DNA of 64,000 nt from Bacteroidota bacterium. Its GTDB lineage: Bacteria > Bacteroidota > Bacteroidia > NS11-12g > UBA9320. Numbering within the stretch: the stretch's first letter is position 1; each line of letters begins with the position of its first letter. The stretch lies in NCBI GenBank assembly GCA_947468275.1, contig CANIKO010000009.1:62001-126000 (forward strand). The letters are read 5' to 3'. Shown here piece by piece: positions 46,328 to 64,000 of the stretch. Under the pieces are notes generated by a model. It made no database searches. It saw only the letters and a list, made by a program, of their open reading frames with translations, and had not been told where the DNA came from. Position numbers and translations under genes: made by a program.

Positions 46328-47710
46328 TTGAGATATACAGTTAGTTTTGATTGCAAAACACATCATGTTGGTAAAGACGGAATGATCCCTATGCTTTTAA
46401 GGGTTTCTATAAATGGTCAGCATGATTATATAAATCTTGGAAAAAGAATAAAAAGGATTCATTATGATGAAATAAATAAATGTGTTAAAGCTGGGATAAC
46501 GGGATTTGGTACAACCAATGCATTTATAGTTAGGCAAAAAGGCATTATTGATGCTATTGTCGAGGATTTTGAGAGAAAGCAGGAAATAATTACTATTCAC
46601 AGGGTCAAAGAAGTTTATGTATCCCGAACAGGGAAAGAAAAGTCCATAAGCCTATTTGATTTTATTGAACAGACGCTCGACTATGAGAAAAAATTTACCA
46701 AAATCAGTCCGTCTACCTTAAAAGGGTATTTAGCTAAATTAAAACATCTTAAAGATTTTAAATCAAAACTTTCAATTCATGAAGTAGACAAGGTATTACT
46801 GGATAAGTATCAAACGTTTTTGCGTGAGGAATTAAAGCTATCAAAAAATACCATTTATAATGACCTTGTGTTTCTTCGCAAATACACTAAAAAACTATTT
46901 GATCAGGGAAAATTAACAAAATACCCGTTTTCGGACTATACCGTTGGCCAGCCACATCTTTCAGAAGTTCAACATTTAATACCGGATGAAATTAATGAGC
47001 TGCAAAAACTTTATGACAGTAAAAAATTATTGAAAATTGTAAGGAAATCTGAAAGTAAGTATGCCAAATACAAGGAATTTGCTGTAGGACAAAGATACCA
47101 GGAAATTTTGCGCTATTTTTTGGTGGCGTGTTATTGCGGCCTCCGCCATTCAGATATAAAAACCCTAAATAGTAAAGATATTCAGGGTAATTATATCGTT
47201 AAGGAAATGCAGAAAGGCCGCCTGGACAGAAAAAAAACGGTTAGAATACCCTTGAGAAAAAGGATTTCAGCATTGCTTGATTTATCAAATCCCGGCGGAT
47301 TGGTTTTTGACAATCCGGTTATGGAAGATGCACAAACCAATAAATATCTCAAAGCTATTATTCAAGATCATACGAATATTAAGAAGCATATCACATTCCA
47401 TTGTGCAAGGCACACTTTTGCTGTAAGTTCCCTTTTGTTGGGATTACCTATAGAGGTGGTAAGCGATATTTTGGGCCATTCTGAATTAACAACAACCCAA
47501 CGTTATGCCAAGGTGGTAGATGAATTAAGGGATAAACACATGGATAAATGGGATATGTTAATTAAAGAAGAATCAAATAAAAATGAAATTCAAGTAAACT
47601 GTCCTGCTTGCGAAAATACAGTGATGAAATTTGAAAGGAACCTTATTAAGTTGAACAAAATTCCAATAGAGTGCCCGTTTTGTTCAACGAATTTTGTATA
47701 TACGTTATAA
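46328..47710 (+). CDS. Tyrosine recombinase with C-terminal zinc ribbon
   Basis: A 460-aa site-specific recombinase. An N-terminal arm-binding domain (about 1-90) and a SAM-like core-binding domain (about 107-200) precede the catalytic domain with R273 (GLRHSD), H358 and R361 (HCARHTF), H384 (GHSEL) and the nucleophile Y393 (TQRYAKV). An additional tail holds C425xxC428 and C449xxC452, a zinc-ribbon pattern not needed for recombination. The start seems to be TTG. It should cut and join at the tRNA-Arg site beside it. Confidence 0.93.
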   Translation: MRYTVSFDCKTHHVGKDGMIPMLLRVSINGQHDYINLGKRIKRIHYDEINKCVKAGITGFGTTNAFIVRQKGIIDAIVEDFERKQEIITIHRVKEVYVSRTGKEKSISLFDFIEQTLDYEKKFTKISPSTLKGYLAKLKHLKDFKSKLSIHEVDKVLLDKYQTFLREELKLSKNTIYNDLVFLRKYTKKLFDQGKLTKYPFSDYTVGQPHLSEVQHLIPDEINELQKLYDSKKLLKIVRKSESKYAKYKEFAVGQRYQEILRYFLVACYCGLRHSDIKTLNSKDIQGNYIVKEMQKGRLDRKKTVRIPLRKRISALLDLSNPGGLVFDNPVMEDAQTNKYLKAIIQDHTNIKKHITFHCARHTFAVSSLLLGLPIEVVSDILGHSELTTTQRYAKVVDELRDKHMDKWDMLIKEESNKNEIQVNCPACENTVMKFERNLIKLNKIPIECPFCSTNFVYTL

Positions 47711-48000: not shown

Positions 48001-48050
48001 TAGTAGTTTACTACTATAAAACATAGTAGTTTTCTATCATTTTTAGGAGT
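48001..48050 (+). promoter_or_regulatory. Operator-like block, copy 1, upstream of the regulatory cassette
   Basis: It begins with the palindrome TAGTAGTTTACTACTA (48001-48016), then TATAAAAC, a third TAGTAG half-site in direct orientation (48024-48029) and a TATCATTTTTAGGA tail. It lies 50 bp ahead of the small gene at 48100; a weak -7 box TATACTTG sits at 48078-48085. The near-identical copy at 50609 makes a shared binding site likely. Confidence 0.75.
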
Positions 48051-48099
48051 AATTAAAATTAGACTTTAAAAAACTATTATACTTGCAAACAAAAAACCT

Positions 48100-48408
48100 A
48101 TGTCATATACAGGATACGAAGACCACAGTATTACGCTTCAAGATGCAGCAGATCTAACTTCTAATTACAGAACCTCTCACCCAGGCGCAATTAAAGGATT
48201 TTATTACAGTAAACAGGCAATCACAGCAATTTTAAACCAAACGGATTGCGTTGGTATCAGAATTTATTATGGAGAGGACGATCTGGGTGTATCAAAACTC
48301 GTTATTGCCGGGGTAAAAGCGGATGAAGATGATATGGAAACAGGATTATTAGCAGAATTTGGTAATCCTTGCCCTCCTCACGGTAGTGCAAATTCTTTGA
48401 ATAGCTAA
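48100..48408 (+). CDS. Small conserved protein with a CPP motif
   Basis: A 102-aa protein of a family I know only as unnamed Bacteroidota proteins. The pattern is an N-terminal ITLQDAADLTSNYR helix, GFYYSK, a cysteine-containing core NQTDCVGIRIYYGED, then LVIAGVKADEDDM and a C-terminal GNPCPPHG motif. No signal peptide or membrane segment is present. The ending and the cysteines invite metal binding or export, but this is unproved. It heads the regulatory cassette: the next gene starts one base after its stop (GTG at 48410). Confidence 0.75.
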   Translation: MSYTGYEDHSITLQDAADLTSNYRTSHPGAIKGFYYSKQAITAILNQTDCVGIRIYYGEDDLGVSKLVIAGVKADEDDMETGLLAEFGNPCPPHGSANSLNS

Positions 48409-48409
48409 T

Positions 48410-49033
48410 GTGTTAATTAAATTATGCAGCCTTTCTATTATTATACCAATTATTATTGGTATAATTTATTGGGGTAACCTCAATAAACTGCAAAAATATT
48501 TCTTTTGGTTTATTGGGTTTTCTGTAATAATTGAAGGGTTATCTTTTTACACAAAAATTAAGGACATTGATAATCATGGATTATTCAAATTTTTCCTGAT
48601 TTGTGATTTATTATTCTTCACTTGGTTTTTCAATAAATCTTCTCCCTTCAAAAATTGGTTAAAAATACTTACCGGTTTATTGATAACCTATATCATTATC
48701 TGGGAAATTACAATTAGGTATTTTAAACCAATCGCTCAGGTTGAAAGCCTTTTTTATATCTTAATCTTTTTATTCTTTGTAGTACAAAGCCGACAAGTAA
48801 TTCTTGGTTTGTTTAATAATTTTGAAATAGACCTTTTCAAAAATTACCTGTTTTGGATTGCTTCTGCAAGGCTGATATATTACTTATTCATATTATTTAT
48901 CTATGTTTATCCAATTTTACTGAGCGATAGTTTTAATATTAAGTTGTTTGCTGTGGCGTTTACTATAATTAATACGACGGCAAATATTATTTGTAATGTT
49001 ATGTATGGAATGAGTTTTTATGAAAGAAAGTAA
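48410..49033 (+). CDS. Multi-pass membrane protein of the sensor cassette
   Basis: A 207-aa protein with about six or seven predicted transmembrane helices and few polar loops; I do not recognise a named family. The start is GTG, because the nearby ATG at 48408 is out of frame and stops at once. Its 3' end overlaps the kinase gene by 14 bp. The kinase has only one membrane helix and no sensor domain, so this protein may supply the signal input. That is inference from the operon only. Confidence 0.75.
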   Translation: MLIKLCSLSIIIPIIIGIIYWGNLNKLQKYFFWFIGFSVIIEGLSFYTKIKDIDNHGLFKFFLICDLLFFTWFFNKSSPFKNWLKILTGLLITYIIIWEITIRYFKPIAQVESLFYILIFLFFVVQSRQVILGLFNNFEIDLFKNYLFWIASARLIYYLFILFIYVYPILLSDSFNIKLFAVAFTIINTTANIICNVMYGMSFYERK

Positions 49034-49760
49034 CGAACTAACCATTGAACTAATTATAGTATTTTCCTGTTTTTTACTGGTAATGGGTTCATCGTTTTTT
49101 TTGTTATTTAGTAAGTATCATAAAAGCCTGAAATTAAAACAGAAGGAAGCATTAAATAATTTGATAGTTGGTCAGGATAATGAAAGGGAAAGAATATCAC
49201 GTGATTTACATGATGAAATGAAACCAGATTTGGCCTCCCTTATTCATAAAATAGATGAAATAAATTCAAAGGAGCCAAACATTTTAGAAGTAAAGAAACA
49301 AGCTAAGCTTACAATAAAAAAGATTATTCAGGATATCCGGCGGATATCTCATGATCTTGCACCACTTATACTAACTAAGTTTGGATTGTCCAATTCTATA
49401 CAGGAACTTATAGATACTTACAAAGGAAAAATTAAAATTGAATTCACTTCAAATTGCGAAGGCAAAGTGTTTAATGATAAAACAGAAGCTCATCTCTATA
49501 AAATCATAAAAGAACTTATTTCTAACACCAAAACACATAGCCAAGCCAATTTGATAAGCATAGTTTTATTGTATAATTTTCAAAAACATGAACTGGAACT
49601 TGCTTATAGCGATAATGGTATTGGTTTTAAAAAAAAGGATCAAAAAACATCAGGAATTGGCCTGAAAAATATTGTAACCCGGGTTGGATTAATGAATGGA
49701 ACTATTAAAATAGACGGAAACAAAGGGTTTAAAGCGAAAATAGCAGTAAATACAGATTAA
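49020..49760 (+). CDS. Histidine kinase, HisKA_3 type
   Basis: A 246-aa sensor kinase. One transmembrane helix (about 9-30) is followed by a HisKA_3 dimerisation domain with the phosphorylated H64 in ERISRDLHDEM, then an HATPase_c domain with the N box ELISNTKTHSQA and the G1 box SDNGIGF and GIGLKNI. The lack of any periplasmic sensor domain means input probably comes through a partner such as the overlapping membrane protein. It pairs with the regulator 11 bp downstream. Confidence 0.92.
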   Translation: MKESNELTIELIIVFSCFLLVMGSSFFLLFSKYHKSLKLKQKEALNNLIVGQDNERERISRDLHDEMKPDLASLIHKIDEINSKEPNILEVKKQAKLTIKKIIQDIRRISHDLAPLILTKFGLSNSIQELIDTYKGKIKIEFTSNCEGKVFNDKTEAHLYKIIKELISNTKTHSQANLISIVLLYNFQKHELELAYSDNGIGFKKKDQKTSGIGLKNIVTRVGLMNGTIKIDGNKGFKAKIAVNTD

Positions 49761-49771
49761 AATATTCATCT

Positions 49772-50428
49772 ATGAATGATACTATAAATGCTTTAGTTGT
49801 CGAGGATCATCCTATTTATAGAAAAGGGATAGTCAAAATTATTTCAGGCTTAAAATTTGTAAAAACCTGCGATGAAGCTGAAAATGGGCAAATAGCTGTT
49901 GATGCATTTAAAAAGTTAAGATATGATGTTGTTTTTCTGGATATCTCAATGCCTGTAATGGATGGTTTAACTGTTGCCCGAATACTGAAAGAAAAATATC
50001 CAAAGACAATAATTATTGTTCTTACGTTTATTGACTCCAAAAAACAAATTATTGAAATATTGGAAATGGGTGTAAATGGATATTTATTAAAAAGTGCCGA
50101 AGAAGATGAGATTATTAAAGCATTAAATATAATTGCTGAGGGAAGACAATATTTTACGGATGAAGTATATAAAATATGGGCAGACCATTGCGTAAACAAA
50201 TCGTCTTTATTAAACTCAGTAAATAAAGAGCCTAGATTAAGTAAACGTGAAATAGAAATCGTCCGGCTATTGTGTGAGCAACATACGGCCAATGATATAG
50301 CCAATTATCTTTGTGTATCTAATTCCACGGTTAATAACCATCGTAGCCATATCATGCAGAAAATCGGGGTTGATAATACCGTTGGCGTGGTATTATATGC
50401 CATTGAACACGGGATTTTCGTTATATAG
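49772..50428 (+). CDS. NarL/LuxR-type response regulator
   Basis: A 218-aa transcription factor. The receiver domain (1-120) has acidic pocket E11-D12, phosphoacceptor D57 (FLDISMPVMDG), a conserved T (about 86) and K (about 108). The LuxR-type HTH covers about 155-218 (LSKREIEIVRLLCEQHTANDIAN). NarL-type regulators bind as dimers to inverted repeats, so the two TAGTAG palindrome blocks nearby are natural candidates for its sites. Confidence 0.93.
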   Translation: MNDTINALVVEDHPIYRKGIVKIISGLKFVKTCDEAENGQIAVDAFKKLRYDVVFLDISMPVMDGLTVARILKEKYPKTIIIVLTFIDSKKQIIEILEMGVNGYLLKSAEEDEIIKALNIIAEGRQYFTDEVYKIWADHCVNKSSLLNSVNKEPRLSKREIEIVRLLCEQHTANDIANYLCVSNSTVNNHRSHIMQKIGVDNTVGVVLYAIEHGIFVI

Positions 50429-50608
50429 AATTATTTTCGTTCCATTTGAAAAATAAAGAGGGTGTAAACCTGATTTATTAATTCATTAAATCAGCCAAAA
50501 ATCTCTCCTAAAAGCATTCTTAATGTTCTTGAATTTGTGGGTATTTCAATTTAACATTCACGATTTGTCATCTTATTATCATCGAAATAATATTTTGATT
50601 AAAAAACA
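50429..50608. other. Gap between the regulator gene and the second operator
   Basis: AT-rich, with no gene and no strong hairpin that I can support. It likely holds the end of the regulator transcript. Confidence 0.5.
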
Positions 50609-50658
50609 TAGTAGTTTACTACTATAAAACGTAGTAGTTTTATATCATTTTTAGGAAC
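50609..50658 (+). promoter_or_regulatory. Operator-like block, copy 2, upstream of the large operon
   Basis: The same 50-bp block as at 48001, with the palindrome TAGTAGTTTACTACTA intact (50609-50624) and only about three differences (positions 23, 34 and the final bases). It is 147 bp ahead of the first gene of the large operon. Such conservation in otherwise unrelated AT-rich gaps implies a functional site. Confidence 0.8.
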
Positions 50659-50804
50659 GGTTGAAATATATCATTTTCTTTTCCTCACTTTTGATAGAAA
50701 ATTAGGCTTTATGAATAGACTATTTTTTATAGAATAAATTATTTGTAATTGGAGTTATATAGAATAAACAAAGAAACTTTATAATGATTTAAATAAATTT
50801 TATA

Positions 50805-52793
50805 ATGAGTGATTTTTATTTTTATACTGAACCCGAACTATTGAGCAGTCAGAATTCTGTCTTCGGGTCAGATAGTCTTTCTCCGAATGATATATATTCA
50901 TTAAACAACCTTTTTTCTGCCTCTTCCAACCCTAAAGCATTTGCCATTACTTCCGGTACTATTTTATTACAGGAGGTTGCGGGCAATAGCAATTTAGTTA
51001 ATATCATTCTAAAACCATCCGTTCAACCAGATTTGGATTTACCCAAAATTGCATTCATAATTTATAAGGGAATACTAAAATCTGAACTTATAAGTGGAAA
51101 TGAGGTTGCGGTAGCCACAAAAAATGATCTGACGGCTAGTATATGGGCATCGCAAACGCTTATTAATACTGCCGCAGCAACCCCTAATCTAATTCCATCC
51201 TCAAATTGTTTCGGTATAGGGTTTACAGCAAGTGCATCTTCACCATTTACAACTGCAAATACTGATAATTTAGACAAAGCTTTTTTTACTGATGATACTT
51301 CTTATCAATTACCTAAAGTAAATGCTGGTTGGACAATAGGTAAATTTGATAGTACAAAATTCGGAATATTGATTGCATTTGAGCAATACCATAATACTCA
51401 TACATTTGCTTTAGCCAGGGAATTAGATTCAAAAATTTCAATATCCCCTTTATCAAGTCCAACTCAAGCTGAAAAGTTTGAATATTACCATAAAAAAGAA
51501 ACAGTTCTATCGTACATGGATGATGCTGCATTTTTTGGATCATTTTATACTTCTCAATTACAGGTCTTTATTGATGACGAATTTTCTCCATTGGAAGGTA
51601 ATGATATTTATGACGATGTTTTAGATAAATATACGAATAAAAATAAGGTTTATCTGGATATAAGAAATGAGCATGGCTATTCCATTGATTATTATGAAAA
51701 TTATAGAACAGGCTCCGCCAGAGAGATTAAAGCTTTGTTTGCAGAAACAGGCTCACTTACAACATTGAATTATTACACGAATGATTGGCCAATTCTGACA
51801 ATAAGTGCTTTTGCGTCTGGAAACACAACTACCAAAAACTACATTAGGTTTCAAATTCCAGAAAAGGATAATCCAAAACCTTTGGTATTTTATAGTAGAG
51901 CATTTAAAAAGGGAAGCAAATTTCAAAGGCTAAAAAATGCAAAAAAATTCTTTGAACCTGCAATTAGCGGTGGTTATTGCGAAGAAATCTCATTAATTAC
52001 TCCTAATAATAACGGTGGATCAGGAACCACACCTATTGCATCATATTATCAAATTAAATATTTAAGACAGCTACCTACCCCAACATCTAATTTAGGACAA
52101 TTAACTATTCCTATGGAACATTATCTTGATCAGTTATTTGCCCCATTTGATATGGTAATTCCATTTTCCATAAGCAGCCAGGTTCGAACAAAGATTTATT
52201 ATGAGGATAAATATATTGACCGACAAGAAGATTATGATACTGATTACACTGCTAATGTTGGTATTGCCGAAGACGCTAACAATATAACATTATTTGCCTA
52301 TCCATCGTTTTATAGAAACAAAACCCGAGAAACAGAGTATGATAAACTATCATTATCAAGTTTGGAGGACAGCACCGAAACTGAATTCTTAAAAATATTG
52401 GCTTCTCAATATAAAAACATTAACGTTTCAATTGGGAATACAACAATTGGGGCTGCAAATTATCCCTATTATAAATTTGAAAGTAATGAAATCAACGAGG
52501 AAAGTGAGGATGAAAGTACTGATGTTTTTAATCAAGTCTATTTTGAAAACGTAGCACTTATTTCATTAAGTAAAACAGAGTGGGCATCAATACAGACACT
52601 TAAATCAACAAATTTCACGCTAAATTACAGAGTTTATCTTGGTGTATCAATTGTTGCACAAGGATTTGACGACTTTAATAATCCCTACACGCAGTTTGAG
52701 CTTGTTCTTAGAGGGCTTGAAGAAGTAAGTGGAAATTTGCAAAAAAAGGAAACAGCAACAGGCATAAATATTAATACTTATGGTATATACTAG
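50805..52793 (+). CDS. Large unnamed protein, first gene of the operon
   Basis: A 662-aa protein I do not recognise. It has no signal peptide and no membrane segment. The sequence is beta-rich and acidic, with a distinctive VYLDIRNEHGYSIDYYENY stretch near residue 281, a PMEHYLDQLFAPFDMVIPF stretch near 440, and a Glu/Ser-rich piece NEESEDESTD near 565. It starts at ATG 50805 and its end overlaps the next gene by 14 bp. A structural or scaffold role is possible but not shown. Confidence 0.8.
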   Translation: MSDFYFYTEPELLSSQNSVFGSDSLSPNDIYSLNNLFSASSNPKAFAITSGTILLQEVAGNSNLVNIILKPSVQPDLDLPKIAFIIYKGILKSELISGNEVAVATKNDLTASIWASQTLINTAAATPNLIPSSNCFGIGFTASASSPFTTANTDNLDKAFFTDDTSYQLPKVNAGWTIGKFDSTKFGILIAFEQYHNTHTFALARELDSKISISPLSSPTQAEKFEYYHKKETVLSYMDDAAFFGSFYTSQLQVFIDDEFSPLEGNDIYDDVLDKYTNKNKVYLDIRNEHGYSIDYYENYRTGSAREIKALFAETGSLTTLNYYTNDWPILTISAFASGNTTTKNYIRFQIPEKDNPKPLVFYSRAFKKGSKFQRLKNAKKFFEPAISGGYCEEISLITPNNNGGSGTTPIASYYQIKYLRQLPTPTSNLGQLTIPMEHYLDQLFAPFDMVIPFSISSQVRTKIYYEDKYIDRQEDYDTDYTANVGIAEDANNITLFAYPSFYRNKTRETEYDKLSLSSLEDSTETEFLKILASQYKNINVSIGNTTIGAANYPYYKFESNEINEESEDESTDVFNQVYFENVALISLSKTEWASIQTLKSTNFTLNYRVYLGVSIVAQGFDDFNNPYTQFELVLRGLEEVSGNLQKKETATGININTYGIY

Positions 52794-54906
52794 TCAATCC
52801 TCAACATCAAGTTCGAGTATTTCAACCACGACAGCGTACTTGAATTTAAACATAAATACCAATTTAATAGGGACTATTATAAATAGTACAATTACTGACC
52901 TAATTAAAGATACCCTAGATGATGTAAAAACGACTATTGATGCCTTAATTATTTCTAAGCCAGGCTCCAAGAGCGGTCTTATTAGGGCTAAGTCCAAAGT
53001 GGCTGAATTAGCTGGATTTTATAGTAGTAGTAATACTTTATCATGGGATGCTACTAAAGTTGAACTTGATAAATTAACTTTTTATGTTATGTTTAGACTT
53101 CCATATAAAGATAGTGGTTTAAACACTAAATATACTAATCCTTTAGGTGTTTCAGGCACATCATGGTCAGTAATGGGAAATAATATTAGAGGTGCTTCGG
53201 GGTCTGGACTGAAAAAATTAAATCAGGCAGGTGAACAAGTAAATTCAAGTGGAGTTCATTGTGACAATGCTGGTAATGATATATCTTCATATTCCGGACA
53301 AAACGCTTTTGATTATTATATAATTAATAACAGAAATGAACCTGAAACTAAGGTTTGGAAAGACTTACATTATGGTTCCGCAGAATTGAATCAACAGGCG
53401 GTTATTAAAGCAAAGCCGATTTACTATTTAATTACTATTCTAACTGAAAATAATCCTGGTAATTATAAACGTGCGATACATTTTCCTAATAATTTGGTTG
53501 GTGATTTTGATATGGACAATAAGCCTAATAACATTAATGATTTACCAAAGCCAGTATATAAAAAAAGACGAATAAAATTAATTGATGGAGAAAACCAAAT
53601 TGTTCAACCGTTGACAGGTAGTACCTTTAGTATTATTTCTAATAAAAAAACTGTTGTCGAAACTCTGGGAAGTACTCCAAGGACATTAAATGTAAAACTC
53701 TATTATAGTGGATATGAAGATATAAACTTAGAAAGATTTGAACTTGAGAATCTTAAAATTGAAAGAGGAGTTGAAAATGGACAACCAGCTGTTTTTGCAA
53801 CATATTATAGTCCTTTTCCCGGTAAACTTAGAATGTTTGAAAAAATTGCAACTCCTAATCTTTCCGGACTGACTTTTGGATTTGGATTTGATATTGGTGC
53901 AAGTCAACCAAATGGGTATTTTTACGAAATAGAATTGGATATTTTAAAATTAAACAATGTAACAGGTGATTTTAAGCTTCATTATGGAAGTAGTCTTTCA
54001 GATTCAATTTCATTTAATTCGAGTAATGAAGAATTAAAAACAAAAATATTGAGCCTTTTGGAACTTAAAGAAATATCTAATTATAAAATTATTGCTATTA
54101 GTGCAATCACTAATAGCGGTGTATCCAACTATACTGCAGGATGGAGAGTTAAAATACAAAGACGATTTGTACCTCCTCCAGGTTATATAAACCAACCAAA
54201 TTCAAAGTCCAAGCCAAAAATCCATAGGGTATTCAGAGTCTATGAGCACAATATATTCTATTATCCTCATGATGGTGATTTTGCCCAAAATAAAATTAAA
54301 ATCTTACCTGAAAAAGAATGGGATAGATGGAAAGTCAGAAGTAAAGCTGTAACAATTTATAATAAATTTGAAACTAAAATAAACAAAATTTTTGGTCCTG
54401 ATCCTGCAGCTCCAAATGATCCGCTTGATTGGTTGAAACCAAGTAGACATCACATCGGATTTAGTAAAAGTGATTTTATTAAAGATATTAGGTATGCGTT
54501 CGGAATACAAGCCGGACCTGCTGCAACATTATTTTATAATATTAATGATAGGCTTATGTTATTTCAAATGCCGGATTTTAATACTAATTATCCTAATTAT
54601 TATACCCATATATTTTCTGTTGATTATTTTCAGAAAGCAAAAGAATCTATTGACGCTTCCCTGCACGATAGAATGAATCTTGCTGAAAAGTTTGTAATGG
54701 TAATGATTCAATATCAAGGCCCTATGACAAAAGGTAAACGAAAAGCATTGGCTCTTGAAAGCGCAATTAGAACAAAAAGTGTAAATAAACTGATCGAAGT
54801 TGCAACCAACTATGCAACTAACAGTTCAAATGTATGGCGGTTAAAATCAATTCAATATTATATAAATCTTTTTTTACCAATATGTTATCGAGGGGTAAAT
54901 TTCTAA
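52780..54906 (+). CDS. Large unnamed protein, second gene of the operon
   Basis: A 708-aa protein I do not recognise. No signal peptide is present; the N-terminus is Ser/Thr-rich (SSTSSSSISTTT). Residues 40-260 have mixed helices and strands with HCDNAGNDISSY, the middle is beta-rich, and 470-690 is basic with KIHRVFRVYEHNIFYYPHDGD and a helical MVMIQYQGPMTKGKRKA stretch. Translational coupling is likely: it overlaps the preceding gene by 14 bp and the next by about 25 bp. Confidence 0.8.
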   Translation: MVYTSQSSTSSSSISTTTAYLNLNINTNLIGTIINSTITDLIKDTLDDVKTTIDALIISKPGSKSGLIRAKSKVAELAGFYSSSNTLSWDATKVELDKLTFYVMFRLPYKDSGLNTKYTNPLGVSGTSWSVMGNNIRGASGSGLKKLNQAGEQVNSSGVHCDNAGNDISSYSGQNAFDYYIINNRNEPETKVWKDLHYGSAELNQQAVIKAKPIYYLITILTENNPGNYKRAIHFPNNLVGDFDMDNKPNNINDLPKPVYKKRRIKLIDGENQIVQPLTGSTFSIISNKKTVVETLGSTPRTLNVKLYYSGYEDINLERFELENLKIERGVENGQPAVFATYYSPFPGKLRMFEKIATPNLSGLTFGFGFDIGASQPNGYFYEIELDILKLNNVTGDFKLHYGSSLSDSISFNSSNEELKTKILSLLELKEISNYKIIAISAITNSGVSNYTAGWRVKIQRRFVPPPGYINQPNSKSKPKIHRVFRVYEHNIFYYPHDGDFAQNKIKILPEKEWDRWKVRSKAVTIYNKFETKINKIFGPDPAAPNDPLDWLKPSRHHIGFSKSDFIKDIRYAFGIQAGPAATLFYNINDRLMLFQMPDFNTNYPNYYTHIFSVDYFQKAKESIDASLHDRMNLAEKFVMVMIQYQGPMTKGKRKALALESAIRTKSVNKLIEVATNYATNSSNVWRLKSIQYYINLFLPICYRGVNF

Positions 54907-55604
54907 TAAAGTGCATTAGTATTGGACTAATATCAGTTTTGTTTTACACTAAAGCAAAAGCACAATGTTATGGATTTGGGCATTTAAAAGAATTTAATTT
55001 GGCTCCAAATTTAGATTCAAATTGCGATTCCATTGCAATTGATACCTCAGCTAAAAACCTAAAGATAACGTTTTATTTATATTTGGGAAATGAGGATTAT
55101 GTATTTACAAAATCCGGAAAATTAGAGTCATATCCATATAGGTTATTGACCTATGAAGTAATTGACACTACAGTACTTATTATGAAAGATACAACTTTAA
55201 AAAGTAAAATAAGGTATTACTATGATCCTTACCGTTATTCACGTCCATTAGGAGAAAAGTATGACAATTATGAGAGAAAAATTTATAAGACTAATTATTT
55301 TGGTATAAATGATACTTCATATTTCGATGATACGCTTGAATTTTATTATCCAATATACAGTGGCAAAGAAATTGAATCATTACTTTTTATTTTTAATAGT
55401 GGAAACTTTCGTAGTAATACAAATTCAATTTGCTTATATAACTTATTAAATAATAAACAGCTTAAGTTATGTCACTGCATACATAATGTTAGTAATCCAA
55501 CATTAAGTTCATTGGAATATATTAAGAAAATGAATAAAAAGAATTACTTTTTTGCAGTATTTCAAGGTGCTCTTGAATATTATTTTTATATACTTATTAT
55601 TTAG
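54882..55604 (+). CDS. Small exported protein of the operon
   Basis: A protein of about 240 aa. I choose the internal ATG at 54882 (MLSRGKFLIKC) because it begins a clear signal peptide ending at KAKAQ; the longer frame from 54834 would add 16 residues ahead of it. The mature part is Tyr/Asp-rich with four or so cysteines (CYGFGH, NCDS, LCHCIH). I do not recognise the family. It is the only clearly exported protein among the first five genes of the operon. It starts inside the end of the preceding gene. Confidence 0.7.
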   Translation: MLSRGKFLIKCISIGLISVLFYTKAKAQCYGFGHLKEFNLAPNLDSNCDSIAIDTSAKNLKITFYLYLGNEDYVFTKSGKLESYPYRLLTYEVIDTTVLIMKDTTLKSKIRYYYDPYRYSRPLGEKYDNYERKIYKTNYFGINDTSYFDDTLEFYYPIYSGKEIESLLFIFNSGNFRSNTNSICLYNLLNNKQLKLCHCIHNVSNPTLSSLEYIKKMNKKNYFFAVFQGALEYYFYILII

Positions 55605-55607
55605 TTT

Positions 55608-58600
55608 ATGACAGTAGCAAATTCTTATAATCCCCAAATAAAAGACCTGATTCCGGTTGATAAACTGCCAGAAAGTATTGCTAATTTAATTGGTGATATT
55701 ACCGAGGGGATTTTTTACAAAGATTACTTTTTTGAAAGCAGCCTTAGCGGTGATGCAGGTTATCATAAACTAACTATTGTATTATATAAAAAGTTAGGGT
55801 TGAATATTGGGGGAGATTCAGGAATGTCGCTGTTATTAAATCCTGGACACACAACCGGTACTACAGAAATACCCGTTTCATTAACTTATAGGTGGGAATT
55901 ATTAAAATACGCTAAAGCATTTAATCCTGAAGACTTGCTTTCAGACCCGCTTGTATTTTTTAATTTATTGTGGGAAATGGTGGGCCCAGAAGATTTTGAA
56001 TTAATAGATTCAAGTATAAATGTATTTTATGGCGATTCATCAACGCCAATTAATGATTTTGTTACTGCCTTTAACGATAATACTGAAATAACCGCAACGT
56101 TAACGGTACCTTCAACAACCGGTTTAGATGCAGCTAAGGATATAGTAACTCAAATGGAGGCACAAGCAGTTGACCCCAAAAACTATATCATTGATTACCT
56201 TATTACAGGTGAGAACAATGGAGATTCTGTGGATAATGCTTCTTTGTTATTCAATCAATGGCTTGGTGCAATTGGTATTGATAATTTAATTGATTTAGCT
56301 ACACCAAAATTTAAGGCTGCTATTGATACCCTTGAATTGGGAATAGGGTTTCCTACCTGGATGTTAAAACCCCTTGATGGCCCGGCATCAGATCCATCTT
56401 CTGAAGTGGAGGAGGATAAACAAAGTTTGCTAACAATTGATATTGCTAGTTTATCATTTAGCAGTGAAGAAGGAATGGTATTTGATATTGGTTCAAATCC
56501 AGCGGAACTTACCCCATCGCAGATTGGTGATACACCAATGAGAATTCAAATAGACGGAGCTGAAATTGATTTAAGAGAAGATACAAATATTCAAGCGGCT
56601 GATGACGATGAAAGGCCTAAATCCTTTAAAGGAATTTTTATTGAGGAAGCCTTAGTCTATTTACCTTGGGCAAAAACAACCGGTACTGCTAACATTATTG
56701 CTCAGAATGTACTCATAGGAAGTGAAGGTGGATTTTCGGGAAAAATTGGAATTGAGGAAGCCGTTTTTGAACATTATGTTGATTTTGAAATAGAAACCAC
56801 ATCTGATATTTCTTACGATAGCGATACGAAAGAAATTACAGTAACAGGAACAAATGAAGATGAAACTGAAATAATAATTCTTGAAGGAACAGAAACCTTC
56901 ATAAGAGACATAGAAGATCATTATTATAAGGTTGAAGATGATGGCAGCATTACAACGGCAACTCCTCCGGCTGATTTATTTACATATAATATTACTGATA
57001 AAATTTCAGTAAGTTTAGATTCACTGTTTTTAACATTTAAGAAAAACTCTCTAGTTAAGAGCAATATTATTGGAAAGCTTACCTTGCCTTTTTTGAGCCA
57101 GCCTATAAAAATTAAGGTTGACATTGGAAATGGTTATTCTATAGAAGCTTCTTTCCCTAAGGGAAAAGCTATTGTAGATAATAATAAGGTTAAAGTAACC
57201 CTTAATTCGTTATTGGTTTCAAAAATAGATGATGTAAAAAGTTTTGGTTTTAGTGGGTCTTTGGTGGTAAACTCAGCAGATCCTTTCTCTAAAAAATTCC
57301 TTCCAGACACAGTGGAAGTAAAAAACCTAGTGTTTTCATCAAATGGACAAATTTTGTTTGATGTTGGTATAGGTTGGAAAAATGGAACAAAAATTAGCGG
57401 AAATCAGGATTCTGGATTGGAAATTATTATTCCTATTCATAAAAAATCTGATGATAAGGATAAAAAACTTTTAAAAATAGATAAAATCAGAATCAATGCA
57501 AAAGTTGATGATGATGAATTAAAAATCAGAACTACGCTAATGGGAGCTGCCTTGAATATTGCAGCCCTAACAGCATCTGCCGAAGGTTTGGGCTTTGAGG
57601 CAGTAGTTAATTTTCCTGAAAACGGGGGGCAACTTGGTTTAGGGGATGTCGAATTAAAATTTGTACCTCCAACCGAAGTAGGTCTAAGCATTGAAACGTC
57701 CACAATCATAGGAGGCGGTTATCTCAAAATAGATCCTGAAGGACACAGCTATGCCGGGGTTCTAGAATTAAAAGTTGTAGATAAGGTCACTATTCGAGTA
57801 TTGGGATTACTCAATACACGATTACCAGGGGGTAAAAAAGGATACTCATTATTGATGTTGGTTTTTGTGGAAGACTTTAAACCAATATCTCTTGGCTATG
57901 GATTTACCTTGAATGGTGTAGGTGGGTTATTGGGATTAAACCGAACTGCAAATACTGAAAAACTGCGTTCTGCTGTACGAAGTGATGATTTGCAATCAAC
58001 CTTGTTTCCTCAGGATGTAGTAAAAAATGCTAACCACATCATAAGCAATTTAGAACAATTTTATCCTGCAAGCGAAGGGCGTTTCTTGGTGGGGCCAATG
58101 GCTAAAATTGGCTGGGGTGCTCCCAAATCATTTATAACCGTTGATTTAGGAATAATCATAGAACTACCGGCTCCTGTTACCATTGTAATATTAGGAGTAA
58201 TAAAGGCTGTTTTGCCGGATGCAGAAGTGCCTGTAGCTATAATAAAGCTCAATATAAACTTTTTAGGGGTTATAGATTTTGGCAAGAAAAGCATTTCGTT
58301 CGATGCCAGTTTATACGATTCAACCTACTATATGTTAGCAGTGAGTGGTGATATGGCCTTCCGCTTAATTTGGGGGGATAAACCAGCTTTCCTTTTAACA
58401 GTAGGTGGCTTCAATCCGCAATTTACTCCACCCCCTTTGAACCTTCCTGATATAAGGAGATTAACTGTTTGTCTTGTTGATAAACCGGAACTTAAACTTA
58501 AACTGGAAACCTATTTAGCCATAACATCAAATACGGTTCAAACGGGTGCAAGGTTAATTGCATTGGCTGAAGAAGGTGGTTTTACAGCAAATGCGATGTT

Positions 58601-59591
58601 CTGGTTTGATGTATTGATTCAGTTCAATCCATTTTACCTGATTGCAAATGTCGGCGCATCGGCAGTAATAAGAGCGGGGGGCACAGTTCTGTTGACAGCA
58701 TACTTAGATTTAACTCTCACAGGTCCTAAACCTTGGACAGTTAGAGGAAGAGTTGAATTTAAAGCATTGTTTATCAAATCCTGTATTAATGTTAATGCAA
58801 GATGGGGAGAAGAGGCAAATCCAACAATTCCAAATAAACCTATCTGGCCTGAACTGGAAGCAGCAATCAATGACGTAAATAATTGGTTGGCTTTATTACC
58901 AAAGAGAAACAATATTTCAGTATCGGTTAAAAATGTTGCATTAGCGGCTGGGGAAGTCTTAATTCATCCGATGGGAAATTTTAGTTTCAACCAAACTATA
59001 TTACCTATGAATGCAACCATAAATAAATATGGATCAGTTAAACCATCGGATTATAAAAAGTTTTGGGTAGTGAGTGTAAAAGATGCAAATGAAAATGCTT
59101 TAGACTTTACTTATCAGAAAGACAATTTCGCCCCTGCACAATATACCCAAATGAGTGACCAGGAAAAGTTGTCAAAAAAATCATTCGAACAGTTTGACAG
59201 CGGAATAAAAGTAGGTACAGAAGCATTGAAATCTTCACATTGGGTTAAAAGAGATGTGAGTCATGAGGAGAAAATTATAGACCGAAGGATGAAACCGCCG
59301 GTTACAAGTTCACGCGATGTACCTTTAGATTTATTCAATACGATGTTGTTGCATGGAGATGTGGCTAACGCAGCACAATCACCGGTTAAAAACCGTTTAC
59401 CCTATGATGCACCTGCAACAAGCAACATCAATACCAATCAATACAAGGTGGCAGTAAAAGACACCATGGCTTCCTACGATTCCACAACATTTGACAGCAT
59501 CGCATCAGCCAATCAGTATTTGAATTCAGTTGTAAATTCAAACCAAAGTCAGGAAAATAAATTATTTGTAGTAGAAACTTGCGAATTATAA
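55608..59591 (+). CDS. Giant DUF6603-like protein
   Basis: A 1327-aa protein without a signal peptide. The N-terminal 600 residues are acidic and variable. From about 600 to 1070 it matches what I remember of DUF6603: GFTLNGVGGLLGLNR (about 765), VGPMAKIGWG, LGIIIELPAPVTIVILG, LTVGGFNPQF, YLAITSNTVQ and a SGPKPW-like GPKPWTVRG stretch. The C-terminal 250 residues are less conserved. The pattern suggests long amphipathic beta sheets. The biochemical role of DUF6603 is unknown to me. It starts 3 bp after the small exported gene. Confidence 0.82.
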   Translation: MTVANSYNPQIKDLIPVDKLPESIANLIGDITEGIFYKDYFFESSLSGDAGYHKLTIVLYKKLGLNIGGDSGMSLLLNPGHTTGTTEIPVSLTYRWELLKYAKAFNPEDLLSDPLVFFNLLWEMVGPEDFELIDSSINVFYGDSSTPINDFVTAFNDNTEITATLTVPSTTGLDAAKDIVTQMEAQAVDPKNYIIDYLITGENNGDSVDNASLLFNQWLGAIGIDNLIDLATPKFKAAIDTLELGIGFPTWMLKPLDGPASDPSSEVEEDKQSLLTIDIASLSFSSEEGMVFDIGSNPAELTPSQIGDTPMRIQIDGAEIDLREDTNIQAADDDERPKSFKGIFIEEALVYLPWAKTTGTANIIAQNVLIGSEGGFSGKIGIEEAVFEHYVDFEIETTSDISYDSDTKEITVTGTNEDETEIIILEGTETFIRDIEDHYYKVEDDGSITTATPPADLFTYNITDKISVSLDSLFLTFKKNSLVKSNIIGKLTLPFLSQPIKIKVDIGNGYSIEASFPKGKAIVDNNKVKVTLNSLLVSKIDDVKSFGFSGSLVVNSADPFSKKFLPDTVEVKNLVFSSNGQILFDVGIGWKNGTKISGNQDSGLEIIIPIHKKSDDKDKKLLKIDKIRINAKVDDDELKIRTTLMGAALNIAALTASAEGLGFEAVVNFPENGGQLGLGDVELKFVPPTEVGLSIETSTIIGGGYLKIDPEGHSYAGVLELKVVDKVTIRVLGLLNTRLPGGKKGYSLLMLVFVEDFKPISLGYGFTLNGVGGLLGLNRTANTEKLRSAVRSDDLQSTLFPQDVVKNANHIISNLEQFYPASEGRFLVGPMAKIGWGAPKSFITVDLGIIIELPAPVTIVILGVIKAVLPDAEVPVAIIKLNINFLGVIDFGKKSISFDASLYDSTYYMLAVSGDMAFRLIWGDKPAFLLTVGGFNPQFTPPPLNLPDIRRLTVCLVDKPELKLKLETYLAITSNTVQTGARLIALAEEGGFTANAMFWFDVLIQFNPFYLIANVGASAVIRAGGTVLLTAYLDLTLTGPKPWTVRGRVEFKALFIKSCINVNARWGEEANPTIPNKPIWPELEAAINDVNNWLALLPKRNNISVSVKNVALAAGEVLIHPMGNFSFNQTILPMNATINKYGSVKPSDYKKFWVVSVKDANENALDFTYQKDNFAPAQYTQMSDQEKLSKKSFEQFDSGIKVGTEALKSSHWVKRDVSHEEKIIDRRMKPPVTSSRDVPLDLFNTMLLHGDVANAAQSPVKNRLPYDAPATSNINTNQYKVAVKDTMASYDSTTFDSIASANQYLNSVVNSNQSQENKLFVVETCEL

Positions 59592-59610
59592 AAAATTAAA
59601 AACTAAAAAA

Positions 59611-62604
59611 ATGCCAGCATCATACAGCTTTTTACCATGGTTGAGACAAGGTCTCACAAGCGGAATACAAAATATAGAAGGAGGTACTACGGGTATTCCC
59701 GCAGTAAGAGCTTCAATAACAATGGATGTTAAATTCAAGGGAAGCCCCATAGGTGGTGGGGCAGATGCTGAATTTGACAAAACCAAGGAGATAAAATTAT
59801 ACGGCCCCTTCGATATTTTGGGAATAAGTCAGGATGCAGTAGTTAGGACAGAACCAAAAAACTGGATTACCAATTTTGAGCCTAATTATTTAGCCTATAT
59901 TGAATTTTACGATGAAGATTTTTTGTGGCGTTATACACCGGCTGCACCTTCTGGAACTGATAGGAATCAGAGATTAAGTCCATGGGTAACATTAGTTGTG
60001 CTTAAAGAAGATGAATTTGAACGGATGCCATTTAATGGCGTTAATCCTTCCTTTAAAATTTTACAGGCGGCAGCAAATATTTTTCAGGATACATCACAAT
60101 TATTTGCATGGGGACATGTTCATGTTAATGAAGATTTGGTAGATGAAGATCATATAGAGGTTGCGGTAAATAATTTAAATACTATTTTAAAAGCCGACCC
60201 CAATAAAGCGGTAAGTCGTCTTCTTTGTCCAAGGCGATTGGACGACAATACAGCCTATTATGCGTTTGTAATTCCAACCTTTGAGTTAGGAAGGTTGGCC
60301 GGGTTAGGCCAAAATATTCCAACCACCGGTACAATTCCTAACGCTTTATCACCTGCATGGATAGGGACAGATAACAACAAAGAATTTCCAATTTACTACG
60401 AATGGTTTTTTAAAACAGGAAGTATTGGTAATTTTGAGTATTTGGTTGAGTTGCTCGAACCAAAAGCTCTCACCATTGATGATGTCGGAAAGAGGAGTTT
60501 GGATGTGCAAAACCCAGGCATACTTAATTTAAAAGGTTTCGCAAATAATAACGAAATCCCTCTTTATGGTGCGGTTAAACCCATTGCTCCAGCCGATGAT
60601 GTATGGGAAATACCTTATCCAATCCAACCTACACCACCAGCACCTCAAATCCCAAGTGAAAAAGCATTTATTGATAAATTCCTTATTGAATTAAATTCTC
60701 CATATCAAAGTTCACAGACAAACCCAACTGACGACCCTGAAATAGCACCACCAATTTATGGTAGATGGCACGCTAAAGTTGATCACCTTGATAATTTATC
60801 AGGTGATTGGTTGCACAAAATAAATCTCGATCCTTCTTATAGGGTTTTTGCAGGTGCTGGGTCACAAGTTGTAAAAAAACGACAGGAAGAATTTATGAAC
60901 CTCGCTTGGCAACAAGTGGATAAAATAGAAGAAGCCAATAAAATAATCAGGCAATTACAATTGGCAAAGGAAGCCAGTGCTTCTGTTTATAACAGAACTT
61001 TTGTAACTGCTGATGCAGATGAACTGATAAGTTTTACAAATACGGTTCATCCACGAATTGTAGTATCAACCAACAATACTCTTTATAAAGAAACGCAGGA
61101 AAGTGTTGTTCCACAGGGTTGCTTCACAGGTGCATTCCGACGTATAACACGACCTAAAGGTTTTGTTGCAAAAAATGTTGGCACCACTCAATCCATTAAT
61201 ACTGCAAATATTATAAATAGCATTAACAGCGGGAATAGTTCCGTGGCCAAAACATACACCGCACCTACGGGAATGTCGGCTTATACCATTTTATCTTCTT
61301 CCTATATTACGTCATCCTATACTCTGGGCTTACCTACAAGATCAACCTTTGTTTTGACAAAACCAGGTGGTACTTATTATTCACCGGTAGTTTGGCCAAG
61401 TTCTCCGGCAAGCGGGGCAGCAACAGGATATTTGGGTGCTGTTCCAAATGTTCATACCCTACTTTCCTCACCCTCCACGCAACCTCCTACGGGGAATACA
61501 CTCGTTTTTTCAACCATTAAAACCAATATTACGGATGGTCTTAACCCGGCCACAACTATCCTGAATATTGCAAAAAAATTGGTAGGGCGAAGTGACGTGT
61601 ATGGTGAAGCGGTGGTTCTTTCTGCTCTCGAATTAATACTTGAAGCCCCTCGCATTGAAATACCAATGTTTAAAGATTTGTATGATATTTCTCCAGACCT
61701 ATTGATGCCTGGTCTAAATAATGTACCTGCAAATTCATTGAGTATTTTAGAACCAAATCAAAATGTTATTGAAGCTTATATGCTTGGATTAAACCATGAG
61801 ATGGCAAGTGAGTTGTTATGGCGTGAATTTCCTACCGACCAAAGGGGAACAGTTTTTATGCGCTTTTGGCAATCGTATTTTACAACCCATACCGATACAA
61901 GTGGAAGCAATTATGATAAAACCCGAAGTATAAAACCTATACACCAATGGAAAAATACAGCCGGAACAGCCCTTTCAGAATTAGGTAAAAACGGACCAAG
62001 TGGTTATCCAACGGATTTATTGTTACTAACAGTAAGAGGTGAATTATTAAAAAAATATCCTAATACTTTAATCTATGCCAATAAAGCGAAATGGGGTCTT
62101 GATACTGCTCAAGCGGAAGATGTTACATTACCACGTAAACTTAAAGATTATAATGTTACAAATGGTGATACTAAACTACCCCTATTTATGGCAAGAGTGT
62201 CTGATATTGTTTTTATAGGATTTGCTTTAACTCCTGAAGAAGTGAAAGGCACGGATGTAGAAGCTACAAGTCCTGATATGAGCAAGCCAGGATGGTTCTT
62301 TGTTTTTGAAGAAATAGCAGGGGAGATACATTTTGGGTTGGATGAATTTGATGAGAATATTCCAATAGATCCTCAAATTACTAATATTCAAGGTTGGGAT
62401 AAATTGAATTGGGGTCATATGGGGGGGACAGTAGAAAGCATAAAATTTATTAATACCGATTTAGGAATTACTATGGCTGACCCGCAAACAACTTGGAATA
62501 ACGCTGATATTCATTGGGGATCCAATGCTGCAGATATAGCTTATGCAACTTATCGTTCTCCAGCTATGCTTGCAGTTCATGCAAAAGATATGTTAGATAT
62601 ATGA
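59611..62604 (+). CDS. Large unnamed protein, fifth gene of the operon
   Basis: A 997-aa protein with no signal peptide or membrane helix. Recognisable landmarks are the N-terminal YSFLPWLRQGLTSGIQ, LSPWVTLVVLKEDEFE near 125, a helical KKRQEEFMNLAWQQVDKIEEANKI near 430, LNHEMASELLWREFPTDQRG near 728 and a C-terminal EIHFGLDEFDE near 905. From memory, similar strings recur in large unnamed proteins of other bacteria; I cannot give a function. It follows the DUF6603 gene by 19 bp and overlaps the next gene by 4 bp. Confidence 0.8.
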   Translation: MPASYSFLPWLRQGLTSGIQNIEGGTTGIPAVRASITMDVKFKGSPIGGGADAEFDKTKEIKLYGPFDILGISQDAVVRTEPKNWITNFEPNYLAYIEFYDEDFLWRYTPAAPSGTDRNQRLSPWVTLVVLKEDEFERMPFNGVNPSFKILQAAANIFQDTSQLFAWGHVHVNEDLVDEDHIEVAVNNLNTILKADPNKAVSRLLCPRRLDDNTAYYAFVIPTFELGRLAGLGQNIPTTGTIPNALSPAWIGTDNNKEFPIYYEWFFKTGSIGNFEYLVELLEPKALTIDDVGKRSLDVQNPGILNLKGFANNNEIPLYGAVKPIAPADDVWEIPYPIQPTPPAPQIPSEKAFIDKFLIELNSPYQSSQTNPTDDPEIAPPIYGRWHAKVDHLDNLSGDWLHKINLDPSYRVFAGAGSQVVKKRQEEFMNLAWQQVDKIEEANKIIRQLQLAKEASASVYNRTFVTADADELISFTNTVHPRIVVSTNNTLYKETQESVVPQGCFTGAFRRITRPKGFVAKNVGTTQSINTANIINSINSGNSSVAKTYTAPTGMSAYTILSSSYITSSYTLGLPTRSTFVLTKPGGTYYSPVVWPSSPASGAATGYLGAVPNVHTLLSSPSTQPPTGNTLVFSTIKTNITDGLNPATTILNIAKKLVGRSDVYGEAVVLSALELILEAPRIEIPMFKDLYDISPDLLMPGLNNVPANSLSILEPNQNVIEAYMLGLNHEMASELLWREFPTDQRGTVFMRFWQSYFTTHTDTSGSNYDKTRSIKPIHQWKNTAGTALSELGKNGPSGYPTDLLLLTVRGELLKKYPNTLIYANKAKWGLDTAQAEDVTLPRKLKDYNVTNGDTKLPLFMARVSDIVFIGFALTPEEVKGTDVEATSPDMSKPGWFFVFEEIAGEIHFGLDEFDENIPIDPQITNIQGWDKLNWGHMGGTVESIKFINTDLGITMADPQTTWNNADIHWGSNAADIAYATYRSPAMLAVHAKDMLDI

Positions 62605-64000
62605 ATAAGATAAAAGGTATATTTTTAATTATATTTCTATTGTCAGGATTAGAAATATTAGCTCAGGATGGTACAGTTAAATCCTTTTTAAAAATCACAA
62701 AGAATAATACTGGATTTTCAGGAATCGATATGACTAATATAAAATTCTTAGGTAGTACCCTAGCAAATATTGGTGATATTGATAAGGATGGGAACAGTGA
62801 TATTGCAACTATGTGCTACAATTCAAGTAAAGGACGAAGATTAATTTTAATTTGTTTTTTAAATAGTGATGGTAGTATTAAATCTGCAGTTGAAATTTCA
62901 GAAGGAAAAGGGGGATTGCCAACTAATTTTACTCCAAATTCTATTGAAGGATTTGGCCAATCAATTTCTTCAATAGGGGATCTTGATAAGGATGGCGTAA
63001 ATGATATTGTAGTAGGTAATCATGGATTATCAAATAAATTTGGTGGTGAAATTTATATATTTTTTTTAAAGAGTGATGGAACAGTAAAGCAGTATTCGCG
63101 TATAGCAGAGGGTATATCTGGTTTTAAGGGCCAAATTAACTCAGAAGATGATTTTGGTAGATCAGTCTGTATGATTGGCGATTTAGATAAAGATGGTGTA
63201 AACGATATAGCTGTAGGGGCTGTTGAAGATAAGGGCGGACTCACTGGATCTGTATGGATATTGTTTTTAAAAACAGATGGGACAGTTAAATCATATAAAA
63301 AGCTTAATTCAACAAGTCCTTTATTATCATCTTTACAGATAGATGGAAGATTTGGTCAAGCAATAGCATTACTTGGTGATCTTAATAAGGATGGCGTAAA
63401 TGATATACTCGTCAGCTTAGGTAATGGTAATGAAGGAGGTACTGGTCGTGGGTCTTTAAGAATTTTGTTTTTAAATAATGATGGAACAATAAAAAGTGTT
63501 TCTAAAATTAGCTCAACTAGTGGTAATTTTAGTGACAGTTTACAAAATTATGGACAATTTGGATGGGCAGTTTGTTCTTTAGAGGATTTGGACGGAGATA
63601 GTGTTACCGACATTTCAGTTTCCGCAATTTCTTATAATAAATCTTGCGGTGCTATATGGAATATTTTTTTAAAATCAAATGGAACTTGTAAATCAATTCA
63701 AAAAATAACTACAGATACCGGAGGATTTAAAGCAGTATTAAAGCCTGGAGATGTTTTTGGTACTTCATTAACTTCAGTCGGAGATTTAAATGGAGATGGT
63801 ATAACAGATATGATTTCAGATGCTTCAAGCGATGGAGAAGCAGGTACAAATGCCGGTGCATTTTATATTCTTTTTCTGAATGGCCAAACTCAATTTATTA
63901 CCCCTGTTGCTTCGTTTATCCAAAGCAAGGATACTATTAAAATAAATGAGTGTGTAAATTTTACAGACCATTCCTCCAATTTCCCAACAAGTTGGAAATG
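62601..64000 (+). CDS. Exported FG-GAP/PKD protein, cut by the right edge
   Basis: An open frame of 466 codons with no stop before the window ends. The ATG overlaps the preceding stop (ATGA). The signal peptide ends near ILAQ (residue 22). Six FG-GAP-type calcium repeats follow (GDIDKDGNSDI, GDLDKDGVNDI twice, GDLNKDGVNDI, EDLDGDSVTDI, GDLNGDGITDM), enough for an integrin-like propeller. The last 30 residues (VNFTDHSSNFPTSWKW) begin a PKD domain. Proteins of this form often end in a T9SS sorting domain, which would lie outside the window. Confidence 0.85.
   Translation, partial: MNKIKGIFLIIFLLSGLEILAQDGTVKSFLKITKNNTGFSGIDMTNIKFLGSTLANIGDIDKDGNSDIATMCYNSSKGRRLILICFLNSDGSIKSAVEISEGKGGLPTNFTPNSIEGFGQSISSIGDLDKDGVNDIVVGNHGLSNKFGGEIYIFFLKSDGTVKQYSRIAEGISGFKGQINSEDDFGRSVCMIGDLDKDGVNDIAVGAVEDKGGLTGSVWILFLKTDGTVKSYKKLNSTSPLLSSLQIDGRFGQAIALLGDLNKDGVNDILVSLGNGNEGGTGRGSLRILFLNNDGTIKSVSKISSTSGNFSDSLQNYGQFGWAVCSLEDLDGDSVTDISVSAISYNKSCGAIWNIFLKSNGTCKSIQKITTDTGGFKAVLKPGDVFGTSLTSVGDLNGDGITDMISDASSDGEAGTNAGAFYILFLNGQTQFITPVASFIQSKDTIKINECVNFTDHSSNFPTSWK

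Follow-up and report, generated by a model that had tools for sequence, protein, structure and literature searches.

Genes of the cassette, the giant operon and the mobile element

The window, a 64,000-nucleotide stretch of a Bacteroidota genome (3.3 Mb, a draft in 32 contigs), contains two near-identical DNA blocks, A and B, with four tightly packed genes between them and a giant operon downstream of block B (Table 1). We refer to the four genes as the cassette. The kinase exceeded the Pfam cut-offs for both HisKA_3 (31.5 bits; cut-off 24) and HATPase_c (32.6 bits; cut-off 26.4), and the response regulator exceeded those for Response_reg (92 bits) and GerE (53.3 bits). The phosphoacceptor aspartate of the regulator is present in VFLDISMP, and the LDI.M motif is conserved in the alignment. 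The regulator scored 123 bits against the NCBIfam NarL equivalog, which is below the cut-off of 250, and its best PDB matches by sequence were VraR, the closest, and NarL.

Neither the small protein (SP) nor the membrane protein (TM) matched a Pfam or NCBIfam family. The small protein was modeled as a small alpha/beta protein (pLDDT 87), and comparison of this fold with the PDB yielded no match above Z 3.6 and no clear relative. Across its family, one Cys (in CVGIRIYY) is invariant, and a CPPxC motif is common at the C terminus. GTDB genomes were scanned with the small-protein alignment, and 80 of the 112 relatives found were kept. A regulator gene was located a short way downstream of the small-protein gene in 73 of 89 loci, a count that includes a few duplicates, and 13 of the other 16 loci reach a contig end. 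The hosts are mostly Bacteroidota, with some Marinimicrobia, Ignavibacteria, and other FCB-group genomes. A literature search of partial coverage, hence weak evidence, found no description of the cassette; judging from this search and the family libraries, neither the cassette family nor the diversification of its operators seems to have been described before.

The giant operon extends from its first gene to approximately window coordinate 79723. It contains two DUF6603 genes, the second of them beyond the window (the two paralogues are approximately 67% identical). Another of its products has an HEISHS motif and weakly matches M64 peptidases, and a further one has a borderline lectin-like domain. 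The genes encoding the 662-aa, DUF6603, 997-aa, 636-aa, 1643-aa, and 862-aa proteins recur in this order in genome G037, where they are largely doubled in tandem, and partly in G067. DUF6603 adjoins the 997-aa family in seven more genomes and occurs in 16 of the 395 genomes sampled from the phylum. The multi-gene DUF6603 system (window 50805-64000 and L063 1-16723) is conserved across Bacteroidota. The cassette was not found in the stretches of G037 and G067 that were examined; the cassette and the operon are thus separable modules. The structural model of DUF6603 was of low confidence (mean pLDDT 63.5) and too weak to use, and its beta-barrel-like matches (best Z 14.9, type 9 translocon) are a hint only. 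No mention of DUF6603 was found in the part of the literature covered.

The cassette and the operon are carried on a mobile element of approximately 45 kb. The tyrosine recombinase gene is located just inside the left end of the element, which is an orphan tRNA-Arg half. The matching 3' half was found at approximately C9 152,930 (L064 7930-7973), beside an intact tRNA-Arg carried by the element. In the related genome G005, the site is empty: the flanks, overlapping by 12 nt, meet in one intact tRNA-Arg that over 73 nt is 99% identical to the two halves put together. The recombinase at one end, the tRNA split between both ends at the anticodon loop, the intact tRNA copy, and the empty site in a relative are the features of tRNA-targeting tyrosine-recombinase elements, whereas the cargo, the cassette and the DUF6603 operon, differs from that of known tRNA-integrating elements. 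The same arrangement of a tRNA plus an orphan half occurs at G003:C5:390-722, which may therefore carry a related element. Genes in the right-hand portion of the element and in the adjoining flank (L064 1875-9197, G000:C9) encode a protein with a weak GmrSD_N match, a 37-kD nucleoid-associated protein (NA37), and, just outside the right end, a Fic-domain protein; these genes are possibly defence-related cargo.

Table 1. Window coordinates of the features described in the text
Feature	Coordinates	Strand	Sequence or evidence
Element left end: orphan 5' half of tRNA-Arg(CCT), cut at anticodon loop	46119..46158	+	
Element tyrosine recombinase	46328..47710	+	Pfam Phage_integrase, Phage_int_SAM_5, Arm-DNA-bind_5
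Putative operator A, site 1	48001..48016	+	TAGTAGTTTACTACTA = TAGTAGT-TT-ACTACTA, perfect 7-2-7 dyad
Putative operator A, site 2	48024..48039	+	TAGTAGTTTTCTATCA, imperfect dyad 23 bp from site 1
Conserved tail of block A	48034..48047	+	CTATCATTTTTAGG; alignment of A, B, C, G001, G051
Putative -7 box, cassette promoter	48078..48085	+	TATACTTG, TAnnTTTG match; octamer recurs in C8, C21, G005 cassettes
Small protein (SP), 102 aa, cassette signature	48100..48408	+	112 relatives in GTDB genomes
Predicted multi-pass membrane protein (TM), 207 aa	48410..49033	+	Hydrophobic translation
Histidine kinase, HisKA_3 + HATPase_c, short N-terminal membrane segment	49020..49760	+	Pfam
NarL/FixJ-type response regulator, receiver + GerE	49772..50428	+	Pfam
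Putative operator B, site 1	50609..50624	+	16-mer identical to operator A site 1
Putative operator B, site 2	50632..50647	+	TAGTAGTTTTATATCA
Putative -7 box, giant-operon promoter	50686..50693	+	CACTTTTG, conserved in G001
Operon gene 1, 662 aa	50805..52793	+	No family above cut-off; relatives in G037
Operon gene 2, 708 aa	52780..54906	+	No family
Operon gene 3, 256-aa ORF, start uncertain	54834..55604	+	
Operon gene 4, 1327 aa, DUF6603	55608..59591	+	PF20248, E 6e-115
Operon gene 5, 997 aa	59611..62604	+	Neighbours DUF6603 in other genomes
Operon gene 6, ~636 aa, start uncertain, ORF runs past window end	62514..64000	+	

Near-identical tandem-dyad blocks precede the cassette and the operon

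In both blocks, TAGTAGT-TT-ACTACTA (site 1) is followed after 7 bp by a second TAGTAGTTTT and then by the tail, which in block B reads ATATCATTTTTAGG. An earlier sequence-only reading had proposed that near-identical 50-bp blocks with about three differences lie in unrelated flanking DNA, and its placement and description of the blocks proved right. Positions 48001-48050 and 50609-50658 are identical at 46 of 50 positions, with four mismatches at block positions 23, 34, 49, and 50, and the first 48 positions (48001-48048 and 50609-50656) are identical at 46. The best 50-nt window between the two intergenic regions reached 47/50, and 200 Markov shuffles reached at most 33. The DNA on either side of the blocks is indeed unrelated.

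The previously noted palindrome, site 1, forms a perfect inverted repeat of 7-2-7 architecture. The third TAGTAG half-site of the same reading is present at 48024 and 50632; however, it heads a full second, imperfect dyad rather than standing alone. This site 2 matches site 1 at 13 of 16 positions and begins exactly 23 bp further on. The site-1 16-mer with up to three mismatches has five matches in the window compared with 0.6 expected, and the exact 16-mer occurs only at 48001 and 50609 in the whole genome.

A looser genome search identified a third, more diverged tandem block (block C) at C9:141742-141779, which corresponds to window position 79742 and is 15.7 kb past the window end. It begins 19 bp past the last gene of the giant operon, which encodes the second DUF6603 protein, and is located upstream of genes for a VanY-like peptidase and a DNA/RNA non-specific endonuclease. 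It retains TAGTAGTTT twice, 22 bp apart, together with the tail, and the remainder has changed. The block thus marks three promoters in one stretch: those of the cassette, the giant operon, and the following operon. All three copies are inside the mobile element, and the looser search found no further tandem blocks in this genome. Single matches to the block on C14 (within a coding region) and on C26 were set aside as background. The sequence-only reading had overlooked the third target promoter, as well as the mobile island and the tandem-dyad rule described below.

The identity of 46/48 with abrupt ends is high for operators that are maintained separately, and block B could have been pasted from block A. 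Block B may indeed have arisen by duplication. That the blocks are only a recent promoter-fragment duplication or a mobile repeat, with no selected function, is nevertheless highly improbable. The genome contains no dispersed copies, whose presence the earlier reading had named as evidence against itself, and the third block retains both TAGTAG sites and the tail although its spacer has diverged. Moreover, related genomes keep the exact dyad (G051) or the block (G001) where other sequence has changed.

The block accompanies the regulator in close relatives

The nearest relative of the window regulator (60% identity) was found in G001, a genome of the same genus. There, the regulator gene adjoins an apparent decayed kinase remnant, and no small protein is present. 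Just downstream of this regulator, TAATAGTTTTCTACTT and TAGTAGATTTCTGTAATTTTAG, separated by 6 bp, are followed by TATCATTTTCTTTTCATCACTTTTGA, an arrangement that matches block B of the window. The site spacing is 22 bp in G001 and 23 bp in block B, and the distance from site 2 to CACTTTTG is 53 and 54 bp, respectively. The two-site score was 26/32, compared with a maximum of 22 in 1000 shuffles. The octamer CACTTTTG is conserved with its flanks (TATCATTTTCTTTTC[A/C]TCACTTTTGA). The gene after the G001 block encodes a short protein with a signal peptide-like start and is unrelated to the window operon; the block thus remains with the regulator although the target differs.

In G051, which belongs to another family of the same order, the exact site-1 16-mer is located upstream of a cassette whose small protein is 71% identical to that of the window. 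This 16-mer was found in only 2 of 395 genomes of a class-wide sample. Judged from sequence, the conservation of the block across relatives indicates function.

Predicted promoter geometry suits activation

The sigma-A -7 box of Bacteroidota is TAnnTTTG, at -12 to -5 (PMC9723704). The putative -7 boxes TATACTTG and CACTTTTG each match five of the six fixed bases, and chance alone would give such an octamer about every 60 bp in this DNA. Two observations support these putative assignments: CACTTTTG is conserved in G001, and TATACTTG recurs at the C8, C21, and G005 cassettes. Each octamer begins 77 bp from the start of site 1, which would place the dyad centers at approximately -58.5 and -81.5 at both promoters. 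With the putative -7 box TAGGTTTG, the dyads of the third block would be centered at approximately -70.5 and -92.5, one helical turn further upstream. Across the cassette family, the distance from dyad to -7 box ranges from 46 to over 100 bp.

The same geometry bears on an RNA element, such as an attenuator or riboswitch, in the two leaders. If transcribed, the block could fold into hairpins (z -2.7 and -1.7), but it has no Rfam match, and dyad centers of 0-2 bp are typical of DNA sites and not of RNA loops. Because the predicted -7 boxes are downstream of the block, the block would not be transcribed from them. We therefore give an RNA element very little credence.

NarL-type regulators can both activate and repress transcription, and nothing in the sequence sets the sign. 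The same regulator and sites could accordingly serve repression (negative autoregulation) or a mixed switch. The dyads are, however, far upstream of the predicted -7 boxes (approximately -58/-81, -70/-92 at the third block, and approximately -100 and beyond at other cassettes), which fits an activator and does not fit simple steric repression. Repression is thus an unlikely alternative to activation, although not a negligible one. The E. coli ogt promoter has two NarL 7-2-7 sites at -44.5 and -77.5 (PMC7419079), and by this analogy the dyad positions in the window suit activation.

Paired dyads recur across the cassette family

Perfect 7-2-7 dyads were detected upstream of 20 of 80 cassettes, compared with 2.1 expected by shuffling (shuffle maximum 6); odd-centered dyads were much nearer to background. 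The upstream regions of 223 other genes on the same contigs served as controls: perfect 7-2-7 dyads occurred in 24% of cassette regions and 4% of control regions (p 1e-6), and tandem dyads occurred in 13 of 78 cassettes and 1 of 223 controls (p 1e-7), p-values that are optimistic because some loci are related and not fully independent. A second copy of the dyad (at least 12/16) was present 21-24 bp away in 13 of the 26 cassettes with a clear dyad; the expected number was 0.08, and none of 500 shuffles gave more than 2. The dyads differ from cassette to cassette (TAGGTAATTTTACCTA, TCCGTATTTATACGGA, and TTAGTACATGTACTAA, among others), so the pattern is not one inherited sequence. By this comparison, site 2 of the window blocks is the family-wide second site.

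The same genome contains three further paralogous cassettes, C21, C17, and C8, each with a private dyad that is wholly or partly re-used after the regulator gene. C21 has TAATAGTTTACTATTA twice upstream of the cassette. Two further copies, inverted and matching at 15/16, are situated where the regulator gene ends, before a gene for an S74-chaperone/T9SS-tail surface protein. C17 has TAGTACCCTGGTACTA upstream and TAGTACCACAGCACTA after the regulator. In C8, TCATATTGCAATATGA is located upstream, and the region after the regulator contains nothing more than TCATATT-like half-sites. In another genome, locus L106 mirrors the window layout, with a dyad pair 24 bp apart before the cassette and again before the next gene. 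The best match to the own dyad after the own regulator was 16/16 in the window, 16/16 in L106 (again a tandem pair), 15/16 in C21, and 13/16 in C17 and G004. Swapped regions equaled the own-dyad match in 0-2% of cases, and the own match was the best or nearly the best in the window, C21, L106, L110, C17, and G004. In most other, distant cassettes, the own dyad was not found within 500 bp after the regulator; a next-door target is thus a feature of a subset. As a second case of operator re-use, C17 has an identical TAGTACCACAGCACTA at two successive downstream positions, L067 10592-10607 and 16674-16689 (G000:C17:60591 and 66673). Perfect TAGTACCNNGGTACTA dyads of the C17 type are also located at G000:C11:134071 and G000:C30:334.

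Dyad similarity tracked regulator similarity, with a Mantel r of 0.47 (p 0.0002) for the DNA-binding domain. The receiver domain tracked the dyad equally well (r 0.57), and the recognition helix alone showed no significant correlation (r 0.03); shared cassette descent may therefore cause the covariation. The failure of the recognition helix by itself to track the dyad would be compatible with another transcription or sigma factor, common to these promoters, that binds the block in place of the adjacent regulator. The tail CTATCATTTTTAGG, partly common to five promoters (blocks A, B, and C, G001, and G051) and conserved as well as the dyads are, points in the same direction. Against such a factor, paralogous cassettes within one genome differ in dyad yet repeat it within their own locus, and G001 keeps only the regulator intact with the block still beside it. 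We consider binding by another factor very unlikely.

Proposed regulation of the cassette and its targets

The sequence-only reading had assigned the blocks to the regulator encoded at 49772, as a binder controlling its own cassette and the large operon. The comparisons strongly support this prediction: related cassettes have their own dyads upstream, C21, C17, G004, and L106 repeat a distinct dyad just after their own regulators, and next to the closest regulator, that of G001, the same block follows at a like spacing to the same -7 box. It is thus probable that the block is a tandem operator at which the regulator (50428 being the end of its gene) acts as a class-I activator of its own cassette, the DUF6603 operon, and the peptidase/nuclease operon. 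Several points count against this reading: the half-sites are unlike the E. coli NarL heptamer, CACTTTTG at 50686 has one mismatch to the consensus, the recognition helix by itself does not follow the dyad, most distant cassettes showed no own dyad within 500 bp after the regulator, and the spacing from dyad to -7 box is highly variable in the family.

In the proposed mechanism, the small protein and the membrane protein are the likely signal input to the HisKA_3 kinase, which would phosphorylate the regulator. The phosphorylated regulator would bind the two 7-2-7 dyads as two dimers, approximately two helical turns apart, and, as a class-I activator, would drive transcription from the -7 boxes at 48078 and 50686. 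Activation would raise the expression of the regulator's own four-gene cassette, a positive feedback, together with that of the giant operon, and through the weaker third copy outside the window, the regulator would also turn up the peptidase/nuclease operon. The comparisons establish the sequence features and their spacing, their confinement to this element, and their conservation among relatives; from these we infer binding by the regulator, its dependence on phosphorylation, the positive sign of the effect, and the parts played by the small and membrane proteins.

Relation to known systems and implications

The predicted mechanism is ordinary NarL-type regulation. As in E. coli NarX/NarL and ogt, a two-domain NarL-type regulator is combined with 7-2-7 inverted repeats in two tandem sites upstream of one promoter (PMC7419079). 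TAGTAGT-TT-ACTACTA has the architecture of a NarL operator, namely two inverted 7-base arms with 2 bp between them. The NarL consensus heptamer is TACYYMT; TAGTAGT agrees with it by eye at approximately four of seven positions and is not a NarL heptamer. The dyads of the cassette family are 21-24 bp apart, in contrast to 33 bp at ogt. Unlike NarX, the window kinase has no NarX sensor and is accompanied by an extra small protein and a separate membrane protein, and unlike those of NarL, the window sites are local to one island and form no global regulon. The combination of a HisKA_3 kinase with a NarL-type regulator, the closest PDB match of which is VraR, also resembles the VraSR/LiaSR envelope-stress systems. 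LiaS is among the family matches of the window kinase, but at 83.5 bits compared with the 450-bit NCBIfam cut-off, and NCBIfam cut-offs were not reached. The accessory genes and the dyads of the window cassette also differ from those of VraSR/LiaSR.

On balance, we lean toward the view that the cassette is an undescribed phylum-wide signaling module, in which the small protein and the membrane protein feed the kinase-regulator pair. Each copy would have a private tandem-dyad operator and would therefore be an insulated switch, attachable to different operons (the DUF6603 system, adhesins) and carried on mobile elements.

These findings provide a concrete, testable regulator-operator pair for the large DUF6603 operon. 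The rule that a regulator's own dyad is doubled at 21-24 bp before its cassette, and sometimes before the next operon, offers a means of predicting, with no more than the sequence, the targets of uncharacterized Bacteroidota NarL-type regulators. With their divergent dyads, the many paralogues are a natural data set on how regulator families evolve private DNA specificity, and the locus suggests how a mobile island may keep its cargo under its own switch.
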